Below are positions 324 through 3,551 of a stretch of DNA of 10,015 nucleotides, one piece after another. Below the pieces are notes generated by a model that saw nothing but the letters and a program-made list of their open reading frames with translations, did no database searches and was not told the DNA's origin. Origin of the DNA: Planctomycetota bacterium (lineage in GTDB: Bacteria; Planctomycetota; Phycisphaerae; SM23-33); contig QNCB01000020.1 in the NCBI GenBank assembly GCA_003644335.1, positions 1-10,015 on the forward strand, given 5' to 3'. Both the position numbers and the translations under genes were made by a program. Numbering within the stretch: the stretch's first letter is position 1; every line of letters begins with the position of its first letter.

Positions 324-3300
324 TCACCCCTCCCATATGAGTAGGCCAACCTTTGTCGCAATCTTGTCCATGTCGACTTCAGGTAGCTCCACAGTCCCGG
401 CCGGAGTAGGAAGATCAGGTTCCAGAAGCTCCGACATTTTTACTTGGTCTTCAGCCAGGCCACGCATGGCGTCCTTGAGCTTATCCGCCGCCTTGCGTCC
501 CTTCTCTTTCACGAACTGACCCGCACGTCCGGCATACCCCATGCCCTTTTGCACTGCGGGGACACGGCCTAAACCTTTCAGAGCGGCTGTGCCCGCGGCA
601 GCAGTAATGAGTGGGTGCTCATAGGAGAATCTCCCCATCCTGTCAAGAATGCGCCGAGAAAGTGGCAACGCAGGATGGCCTACGGGCTCCCCCCTCCGTA
701 ACCGCGACTGATAATCGAGTCCCAAAGCAGACATAGCTGCCAAAGTCCCCAACATTGGAAGAGCTAAAGAAGAAGCCTTCCTACCGACGGTTTCTCGCAA
801 CCCAGCTTGCTTGGGAACCATTTCTGTGAGGGTGGGGATCGGGACTCCCTGGTCAGTCATGTAGTGAGGCCCCATTTTGGGCCATTGCGTTGCACCAAGC
901 GTCCCCAAAGAGAGCGCCAATAAAGGTTTCAACTTTCCATGGCCAAGGCGTTCTAATCCGCTCCCCAAAACCTTGTAACCCCCTGCAAGTAGCGCACCCC
1001 CTCCCAAAACCTTCATGAGGTTTCGCTTTGCGATCTCGTCGTGGGCTTCCAGGGCCGCTCCCCGGGTCGTTCCGTATACTGTTCCCGTAGCCGGATCTGT
1101 GACAGTGAGCGGAGAGGTTCGGGGTTCGGGAGTCTCTCTCCACTGCGCAGGAACCAGGCGTCGCTTCAGATACTGCCCGATGCCAGAGCGCTTCTCAAAG
1201 TAGTCGTCGACTTCTTGAGCGATCTTCACGTCGATGTTTTCGGGAGAAATATCGAAAGCCCCGGTTTTCTCGATCTGGTCCATCACCTGTGGGCAATCAC
1301 CCAGGAAGTCCATGATGGGTCGTTGCATCACGACACACTTATCAAGGACATCATCACCGACTGTAGCCTTCGGGTAAGACTTGTAAATGACGATCTTCAC
1401 TACCTCTGGAGTAGAGAGGGACATGCCACCGGCGAACAGCGTAGACATTACCTTATTGATAGGGTGTGTTGACAGTCTCCGTAGGACATCGTCCGGAAGC
1501 TCCGGAGTGGATTGGGCTGACGACAAAACAATGTCTCGCATCCCCTGGATGTTGTGTATATCCGCTTCGTCAAAGCCCTCGGTCTTGGCATCGACGGGGT
1601 AGCCCTGCACAATCTTGTCGATGACGGCTAATTTCCGGGCTGCGAGCTTTCGCTCCGCCATCTTGTCGATGTACTCCCCGGCGCTCGCACCTGAGATTTC
1701 GTAGGGAGCTTCCGCGACTTTCTTCATCATATACGCCATCGGGTCTGCGGGCTTGAAGACCCACGAGATATCGAAGAACTTAGGTTTCGGGTTGAGAGCA
1801 CACACCGTCCGGCCACTCGGAAGCGTCTGCTTCATCTGGAACTTCAGGTGATCGCAGTACTGGGCACGCGTCGGTGCTCGATTTCCGCATTCGCTGCAGA
1901 CGTCGTACTTCACCCGTGTTCCCATGCTCACCGGCGGGAACTCCCCAGCCTCGATGCGTTCAGCTAGGTCGGGAGCTTTCGTGTTGTCCAGGTCAACCAG
2001 GAGTTCCACCCGATGCATGGTCGGGTTCCAGAACGCCTTCATGACCTTGCCGACGGCCTTCTTAGGATCCTTGTTACAGTTGTGCACTACCACATCGTTA
2101 ACTACGTAATGATGTAACTCTTCGACCTCGAGGTTAAAAACTTCTTCCTCTAGGACAATATCCTCGCGGTCAGTCACTCGAACTAAAAAAGTGTCCCCCA
2201 CAGCGAGGGTTTGTGGCGTTCTTGTTTCCCATACACACTTTTTACGGCTGTATTTAGTAATTTGCGGAGAATATGCCGCTGCGACGGCGACTACTCCTGA
2301 GCCCGAGTAGGAATACTGTTTTCCGTTAGTAGGGCTGATCATCTCCCCAGCCGGTATATCCCACTGAACTGTTGCTGGGATCCCTAAGGACTTGATTATA
2401 TCTGAAAGAATATTCAACATCTGCGGAGAAGAAGACCTAATACGAAGCTGCCCTGCATTCTTACCTGTAGGACATACGTGTCCGTCTCCGTCGATATATG
2501 TACCAAGCATTTGGAGTAGTGATTCAGAATCCCACTCCAAAATTTTCTCTGTCAGGGACTTCTCCGAAAAAACTCCTTGGACGTAATCAGAAAGAGCCGC
2601 GTGCACTCGAGACGAACAGGAAGACGCCATCGTTAAACCGTCCGAGCGGGAGTGTAAGCCCACATGTAAATTATTTTCCTCGAGACACTTTTTCACCGCA
2701 GGAATGTCCAGGGTATTTTTAGAAGAGAATGTGAACTGTATACTTCCTCTCTTTCCTAAGTGACCCTCCGAAGCCACCCACCCTACTAGGCGCGCGAACC
2801 CAGGGTCCACAACAGTATTCCCATGCTTTGGTTTAGGAAAAACTAGATAATCTCCCGGAAGAACAGCACTGAGAGGAACCCACACAGGCTCTCCGATACT
2901 GCCCCGTTTTTCTTGACAGGCTTTCGTACTACACCCTCGCCCTTCAAGAGTAAGATAACAGTACCCATGCGGACAGTGGACTTGTTCTCTTTGGTACACA
3001 AGAACTGGATGGTCTGCGGTCCCCGTAAGCGGTTGGTAATTACCCCGTAAGGAAAGCTGTACGCCTTCTCCGGCGTAGGGGCGCCGCATGATTTTCGTAA
3101 CTTTTCTAGGGCCCGAAAGTGTCTCTACTAGGTCATTTTTTTGAACATCCTCTATTGCCACACGCTTACGGTTGGCAAGAAGTACTAGAGATCCAGCAGG
3201 AAAGCAGTGGTGCCGATAGTTGTAGCCGTATTGCTCAAAAGTTTTGTAGTGGAGGGGAAGAACATCATCCGCAGCAATCCAAGGAGGGGTAGCATCTTCT

Positions 3301-3551
3301 TTGAAGGGGTATTCGGGGAAACCATCTCCGTTTCGGTTCTCACCGTACGTCTCCCAGCCGCTGACGGCGAGGACGTAAACGATGGAATGGCCGGGGATCG
3401 GCTGAATTGTCCGGAAGTACTCATCACCTACACTCGCGTACTTGGTAACGTCCTCCACACAGGGGCGCCCATTAGCCCACAGCACGACGGGCTGGACGGT
3501 CAACTCCCCGGTAGGGAAGTACGGGTCGAGGTGTAGGACCTTTGATAACAC
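324..3551 (-). CDS. Probable prohead (capsid maturation) protease interrupted by an intein
   Basis: The reading frame encodes 1075 residues; removing the intein (116-491) leaves about 699. The N-extein has an NxNGDxFPE-type stretch (73-80, NRNGDGFP) and YRHH at 112-115. After the intein come CNKDP and VGKV (492-503), VSMG with Ser542, and a zinc-knuckle-like set Cys552, Cys555, Cys566, His568. A His, then a Ser in SMG, then CxxC...CxH is a layout I associate with putative prohead proteases of large phages. His114 or His115 and Ser542 are my candidate catalytic residues. These enzymes cleave scaffold and capsid proteins inside the prohead. Residues from about 615 to 1075 form an unusually long extension with several Gly/Ala-rich hydrophobic segments between 845 and 1000. 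The GTG start at 3551 overlaps the upstream TAG by one base, suggesting translational coupling; the Shine-Dalgarno sequence (GGGAAG) is weak. The scaffold-like gene follows, as expected for a protease. The exact peptidase family is uncertain. Confidence 0.6.
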   Translation of the reverse strand: MLSKVLHLDPYFPTGELTVQPVVLWANGRPCVEDVTKYASVGDEYFRTIQPIPGHSIVYVLAVSGWETYGENRNGDGFPEYPFKEDATPPWIAADDVLPLHYKTFEQYGYNYRHHCFPAGSLVLLANRKRVAIEDVQKNDLVETLSGPRKVTKIMRRPYAGEGVQLSLRGNYQPLTGTADHPVLVYQREQVHCPHGYCYLTLEGRGCSTKACQEKRGSIGEPVWVPLSAVLPGDYLVFPKPKHGNTVVDPGFARLVGWVASEGHLGKRGSIQFTFSSKNTLDIPAVKKCLEENNLHVGLHSRSDGLTMASSCSSRVHAALSDYVQGVFSEKSLTEKILEWDSESLLQMLGTYIDGDGHVCPTGKNAGQLRIRSSSPQMLNILSDIIKSLGIPATVQWDIPAGEMISPTNGKQYSYSGSGVVAVAAAYSPQITKYSRKKCVWETRTPQTLAVGDTFLVRVTDREDIVLEEEVFNLEVEELHHYVVNDVVVHNCNKDPKKAVGKVMKAFWNPTMHRVELLVDLDNTKAPDLAERIEAGEFPPVSMGTRVKYDVCSECGNRAPTRAQYCDHLKFQMKQTLPSGRTVCALNPKPKFFDISWVFKPADPMAYMMKKVAEAPYEISGASAGEYIDKMAERKLAARKLAVIDKIVQGYPVDAKTEGFDEADIHNIQGMRDIVLSSAQSTPELPDDVLRRLSTHPINKVMSTLFAGGMSLSTPEVVKIVIYKSYPKATVGDDVLDKCVVMQRPIMDFLGDCPQVMDQIEKTGAFDISPENIDVKIAQEVDDYFEKRSGIGQYLKRRLVPAQWRETPEPRTSPLTVTDPATGTVYGTTRGAALEAHDEIAKRNLMKVLGGGALLAGGYKVLGSGLERLGHGKLKPLLALSLGTLGATQWPKMGPHYMTDQGVPIPTLTEMVPKQAGLRETVGRKASSLALPMLGTLAAMSALGLDYQSRLRRGEPVGHPALPLSRRILDRMGRFSYEHPLITAAAGTAALKGLGRVPAVQKGMGYAGRAGQFVKEKGRKAADKLKDAMRGLAEDQVKMSELLEPDLPTPAGTVELPEVDMDKIATKVGLLIWEG
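2079..3206 (-). mobile_element. Intein with LAGLIDADG homing endonuclease, in the protease gene
   Basis: The insert is 376 residues (116-491 of the precursor). It starts with Cys116 in CFPAGSLVLL, a classic block A. Block B is TADH (Thr178 and His181, the TxxH motif). The C-terminal blocks read VFNLEVEELHHYVV and then VVVHN, with penultimate His490 and terminal Asn491. The next extein residue is Cys492, the nucleophile needed for splicing. All the usual splicing residues are therefore present. Two nine-residue LAGLIDADG motifs lie 94 residues apart: LVGWVASEG (255-263, acid Glu262) and LGTYIDGDG (349-357, acid Asp356). This suggests an intact homing endonuclease able to spread the element into intein-free alleles. 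Between block B and the endonuclease lie four cysteines (193, 198, 207, 212) that could bind zinc. Several lines of the insert are visibly AT-richer than the flanking gene. Identification as an intein is secure; activity is inferred. Confidence 0.96.

Follow-up and report, generated by a model that had tools for sequence, protein, structure and literature searches.

An intein next to a predicted catalytic histidine

The stretch of DNA analysed here, in the following called the window, comprises 10,015 nucleotides of contig QNCB01000020.1 from a Planctomycetota bacterium. On its minus strand, which carries all features described below, an open reading frame of 1075 amino acids plus stop (324..3551) encodes the precursor of a putative phage prohead protease, with matches to phrog_18299 and phrog_2774 (head maturation protease). 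This frame includes an insert of 376 amino acids (residues 116-491, 2079..3206) which, judged by its sequence, is a complete class-1 intein with a Hint part and a LAGLIDADG endonuclease. The N-extein (residues 1-115, 3207..3551) has the predicted catalytic His115 as its last residue. Cys492, the +1 nucleophile, opens the C-extein (residues 492-1075 plus stop, 324..2078); the joined protease would have 699 amino acids.

The set of class-1 residues is complete. Block A (3144..3206) begins with the nucleophile Cys116, block B contains the TADH motif (residues 178-181, 3009..3020), and block F/G (2079..2141) ends with the penultimate His490 and the terminal Asn491, directly followed by Cys492. Both LAGLIDADG motifs are present and retain their acidic residues, Glu in LVGWVASEG (2763..2789) and Asp in LGTYIDGDG (2481..2507). 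Comparison with the intein-free relative P0004 placed the insert exactly between residues 115 and 116 of that protein (H115|C492), and the DNA of intein-free relatives runs uninterrupted across the insertion site. The motifs and the exact boundaries thus confirm the original prediction, made from the window alone, of an intein with complete splicing motifs.

A structure comparison matched the fold of the intein with LAGLIDADG inteins and I-DmoI. PI-SceI and TliVMA (1ef0, 7qsu) are also class-1 LAGLIDADG inteins, but their host is the V-type ATPase, and identities are 15-18% among the VMA matches listed. A sequence search of solved structures found no relative of the intein at E values up to 0.01, and its Hint-type matches stayed below the Pfam cut-offs. 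Such scores would fit a decaying remnant, that is a poorly splicing intein at a locus which survives on a spliced minority product. We regard this as extremely improbable, because the splicing residues are complete, neither LAGLIDADG acid has been lost, no stop interrupts the 1075 codons and the C-extein is 76-83% identical to its nearest relatives. In a phage collection of 50,697 records the intein matched four records, in genes for a portal, DNA polymerase (two) and a helicase, and none in a protease gene. A single-sequence search of IMG/VR with the intein confirmed none of 13 candidates.

The host enzyme

Very probably the intein resides in a prohead protease that has the fold of T4 gp21 and the herpesvirus proteases. 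When Foldseek candidates were compared using VIA-align 2, T4 gp21 (5jbl) was the top fold match of a P0004 model; Foldseek alone gave no significant match. Using hhalign against ten gp21 sequences (T4 and nine others), H115 was aligned with H85 and S166 with S140, with an E value of 0.0079 and a probability of only 5%; against a single gp21 sequence the alignment was too weak. For this comparison 114 sequences were aligned: P0004, about one sixth of the family rows, 91 of the 101 intein carriers described below (the ten with odd or uncertain ends were excluded), and two phage and three viral-contig relatives. We take His85 and Ser140 of T4 gp21, by their numbers, to be its catalytic residues.

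In the precursor the aligned motifs are NRNGDGFPE (residues 72-80, 3312..3338), opposite N51-R52-N53 of T4 gp21, YRHH (residues 112-115, 3207..3218) with the invariant His115 opposite His85, and VSMGT (1917..1931) with Ser542 opposite Ser140. The predicted third catalytic residue, Asp594 in FFDISWV (1758..1778), follows the triad pattern in the accessible text of PMC5694885. It was matched to gp21 by motif and order only; its T4 counterpart is presumably D168, as suggested by conservation in the alignment and the triad named in that source. H115, S542 and D594 form the predicted triad, and none of the 119 family rows lacks any of the three. This family set goes back to a protein search with the C-extein (217 matches, the best 120 of which were listed); P0002, which is the window's own protein, and P0114 were dropped and the window protein was added. 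Between Ser and Asp lies a CxxC...YCDHL stretch (residues 552-569, 1845..1898), a probable zinc ribbon by pattern only.

T4 gp21 and the host thus share the fold, the NRN motif, the positions of His and Ser and a conserved Asp after these. In contrast to the host, gp21 is intein-free and, at 212 amino acids, has neither the CxxC...YCxHL stretch nor the long C-terminal half. P0004 did not match Pfam Peptidase_S77 (PF03420) at E values up to 1, whereas T4 gp21 scores 372.3 bits, and for this reason we do not file the family as S77. Among solved structures the protease profile matched only twice and weakly, in both cases 'stable protein 1' (E values 0.042 and 0.53). Searching GTDB genome contigs with the same profile confirmed none of seven candidates and therefore gave no hint at the host organism.

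The size of the mature protein (699 amino acids) and its helical C-terminal half without known role would also be compatible with another head protein that took over the protease fold, and in the 40 phage records listed, out of 208, the relatives go under the names hypothetical or structural protein. We consider this quite improbable: His, Ser and Asp occur in all 119 rows, the best fold match is T4 gp21, a capsid gene is located downstream of the protease gene, and the 24.7-kb Arash stretch that was examined shows no annotation of another protease. The assignment of the host as a prohead protease made in the original prediction is accordingly borne out by the fold match, the conserved residues and the phrog matches, and the joined exteins did not match a non-protease family. 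The intein is flush against the predicted catalytic His115, as had been proposed, and not only Ser542, as expected, but also Asp594 lies across it on the C-extein.

The C-terminal half (327-1700 of the window) is long and helical, and the VIA-align rows in this part (462-518 of P0004) resemble common long helices. One carrier, P0136, has 1319 amino acids and a single detected intein; matches to PF18905 and PF18823 hint at an additional domain joined to the protease.

Distribution among close relatives

We refer to the position between residues 115 and 116 of P0004 as site a, and to that between its residues 175 and 176 as site b. Within the 119-row set, 103 proteins are intein-free, seven carry an intein at site a only, eight at site b only, and one (P0086) at both. 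The five rows nearest to the window protein by tree path (best 84% identical) are all intein-free. On the extein tree, which like the intein tree was calculated using FastTree, at least five changes of state were needed for site a and at least nine for site b. Apart from full-length inteins, no insert of 60 residues or more was found in this set, which had been collected by extein. P0072 and P0086 have exteins that are 98% identical and differ by the whole b-intein. This scattered presence led us to reject the idea that the intein is a fixed regulatory part.

Residue 116 is Cys in all eight site-a carriers. Among the 111 rows that lack an intein at this site it is Cys in only 4, with V, A and Q as the most common residues. 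Because Cys is nearly confined to the carriers, either the intein brought the +1 residue along or rare alleles already had it. As it stays in the C-extein, the spliced enzyme would keep a Cys adjoining its His. The four intein-free proteins with Cys at this position (P0022, P0039, P0060 and P0117) may have lost an intein precisely and kept this Cys as a relic, or may be targets ready for insertion.

P0114 was considered as a split intein and rejected. It starts inside the intein; the viral contig L032, equally long at 95,498 bases, terminates there, and P0114 was therefore taken as cut by the contig end. Both L032 and L035 (64,944 bases) end inside a b-site intein; these ends are perhaps assembly breaks at a site that is polymorphic for the intein.

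The active site as an insertion hot spot

For a wider sample, matches to the C-extein, to the window intein (97 matches) and to the b-intein plus C-extein of P0086 (24 matches) were pooled, resulting in 216 proteins. According to the profile 112 of these contain an intein; after excision 102 match the protease profile and 10 do not. Without P0114 there are 101 carriers with 126 inteins at about eight insertion points, a set that was largely baited by intein and gives no measure of frequency.

Site a (H|C) holds 76 of the 126 inteins. Eight are located at a site a', three residues earlier (Y/F|[C/S]HHxNKDP). Site c immediately follows SMG, SMA or SMS at the predicted catalytic Ser and holds 20; another 17 precede the first cysteine of CxxC (site b), and two precede the Cys of YCxHL (site d). 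The remaining three interrupt the NRNGD motif in three relatives, apparently at three different points, one of which was placed by its flanks only. Each of these points is thus within or adjacent to a catalytic motif, the NRN motif or a probable metal-ligand motif, and the host enzyme is an intein hot spot.

Two inteins were found in 25 of the 101 carriers, and in 22 of these 25 the His, Ser and Asp are on three separate exteins. This count includes P0135, in which Asp is unaligned, and P0126 and P0170, in which Ser falls inside a mis-set boundary. The ends of inteins were snapped to HN followed by C, S or T, so that counts of end residues are biased in this direction. In P0126 and P0170 the site-c boundaries were set three residues early and the site was assigned from the SMGC or SMSC context; in P0068 and P0107 the boundaries were set by hand from the family alignment. 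All three residues could be aligned in 94 of the 101 carriers, with Asp gapped in five and Ser in the two mis-set ones.

The inteins at a' (in P0122, P0126, P0135, P0136, P0145, P0153, P0154 and P0165) belong to the site-a lineage; the intein tree requires two changes for a' and three for a, as if the intein had moved by three codons. P0158 contains a short intein of 264 amino acids before NRNGD (residues 73-336). In P0135 (residues 1-375) about 260 extra residues precede the a' intein, perhaps a third intein.

Evidence for a mobile element

The composition of the window intein (GC content 48.0%, GC content at third codon positions 43.6%) differs from that of the exteins (55.7-55.9% and 63.1-66.1%). 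The motif-1 acid is retained in 84 of 84 inteins at sites a and a', and the motif-2 Asp in 83 of 84, at lengths of 352-386 amino acids; searching with a full-length intein favours full-length, acid-keeping ones. The motif-2 Asp of the site-c inteins could not be placed. The inteins cluster by site, with eight changes on the intein tree compared to a mean of 47.1 after shuffling and none of 200 shuffles as low, although this tree carries long-branch warnings. At site b the inteins of P0086 and P0097 are 85% identical with exteins at 61%, and those of P0068 and P0107 79% with exteins at 55%. The window intein is closest to those of P0026 (74%) and P0049 (72%), with whole exteins at 60%, and among the 83 other carriers at a or a', 71 resemble the window protein more closely in the intein than in the protease domain, whereas 12 do not. 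The extein identity of 9% for P0135 reflects its extra N-terminal sequence.

The picture is not uniform. For P0026 and P0049 the protease domain alone is 73% and 77% identical, and the excess of the site-a intein vanishes. The remaining pairs at site b show no excess of intein identity over the exteins. Furthermore, 6 of the 17 site-b inteins (P0008, P0079, P0086, P0091, P0097 and P0120) have lost the motif-1 acid, replaced by N in five and by G in one, whereas all 17 have an intact motif 2; these six are possibly nickases or decaying endonucleases. Yet for two members of this group, P0086 and P0097, the b-inteins give the impression of horizontal transfer. Because presence is scattered, composition foreign and both endonuclease motifs retained, we favor a mobile parasite, and the overall pattern is the one that active homing would predict.

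The original prediction had also proposed that splicing acts as a timing switch or natural zymogen. In this case the intein would be kept since slow or conditional splicing silences the protease until the prohead is built. The location of the insertion points relative to the catalytic, NRN and probable metal-ligand motifs, and the 22 of 101 carriers with His, Ser and Asp split over three exteins, would suit such a function. Inteins favor active sites for insertion, however, so that this position is their usual habit. Conditional splicing is documented for other systems in the accessible literature, and tuned splicing of phage inteins is suggested in the accessible text of PMC5050341. On the other hand, 103 of 119 relatives, including the five nearest, are intein-free and hence control the protease without an intein, which argues against a need for conditional splicing; the endonuclease acids retained in 83 of 84 inteins at a and a' point to ongoing homing rather than domestication. 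Moreover, gp21 is already auto-inhibited: as far as described in the text available of PMC9958956, its N-terminal region keeps the catalytic centre blocked, and the enzyme becomes active through N-terminal self-cleavage. The marks of a mobile parasite and the distribution do not support a timing function, which we consider unlikely. It is similarly doubtful that in phages with two inteins the two splicings (His-Ser and Ser-Asp) form a two-step zymogen that would delay head proteolysis until assembly is done, with the active site as a recurrent platform for inteins.

Proposed mechanism

In our opinion the element is, with high probability, a homing intein of class 1 with a LAGLIDADG endonuclease, which interrupts a phage prohead protease directly behind the predicted catalytic His115 and is a mobile element sheltered by its position. 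The boundaries, motifs, family, scattered distribution and site-specific intein lineages can be read from the sequences; from them we infer splicing, endonuclease activity and an inactive precursor. Class-1 splicing consists of an N-S shift, transfer to the +1 nucleophile and Asn cyclisation. Given the complete motifs, the whole precursor would be translated, Cys116 would undergo the N-S shift, and transfer to Cys492 and cyclisation of Asn491 would leave a peptide bond between His115 and Cys492. The active site would be built in this way, as the segment containing His becomes linked to the one containing Ser and Asp. The motifs and the distribution further suggest homing, in which the endonuclease would cut intein-free alleles at the conserved HH-x-NKDP codons and so spread the intein. 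Loss would be difficult because an imprecise deletion would destroy an enzyme needed for virion assembly.

The earlier claim that the enzyme cannot assemble its active site before splicing is very probably correct, because the intein sits on the peptide bond after His115 and both Ser542 and Asp594 lie beyond it. Since the termini of an intein are close together in the Hint fold, partial folding of the exteins before splicing is possible. Inactivity before splicing is best read as a consequence of the insertion site and not as a function.

Comparison with known systems

The element is of a known kind, but it is notable for the enzyme in which it occurs, for how many sites there are and for the alleles with two inteins. 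The following comparisons refer to the accessible texts of the sources cited. Inteins in phage packaging and head genes (terminase, portal) are described in PMC5050341. The mycobacteriophage terminase inteins in that paper resemble the present case in their phage DNA-packaging gene, several catalytic-domain sites (seven) and scattered presence; splicing and homing were tested there, and the host is an ATPase/nuclease. Further hosts listed are RecB-like, RDF, nucleotidyltransferase, methylase, TOPRIM, thymidylate synthase and helicase proteins, and the word 'protease' occurs only once, in a reference title. Haloarchaeal MCM helicases (PMC10643990) likewise have several close sites, alleles with one or two inteins and site-specific homing, but here the gene is an archaeal replicative helicase with four sites.

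The chloroplast ClpP of Chlamydomonas eugametos, known to us by a reference title, is said to contain an intein in a protease, though in an unrelated one and in an organelle gene.

In the texts consulted no prohead-protease intein was found, with intein databases and subscription papers outside the search; the accessible texts were those of PMC3868849, PMC3185647, PMC12363816, PMC3322345, PMC6132909, PMC9026906, PMC9958956, PMC5694885, PMC5050341, PMC3706429, PMC12220804, PMC5618024, PMC7685451, PMC7409376 and PMC10643990. With the head-maturation protease, the phage intein hosts that could be found are extended by an enzyme whose substrates are not nucleic acids. The family also provides a natural series with zero, one or two inteins at about eight points and near-identical alleles with and without them. 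Using this series, the question whether active-site inteins are parasites or regulators could be tested in one enzyme with a simple activity read-out, and P0072 and P0086, one whole second intein apart, are a ready comparison.

The window had no Rfam match at the gathering score. The window's virus record opens with four copies of a 33-base tandem repeat (L013:1-133), which in the open frame reads as GSKAKGVGTAV repeats and may explain the contig end at this position.
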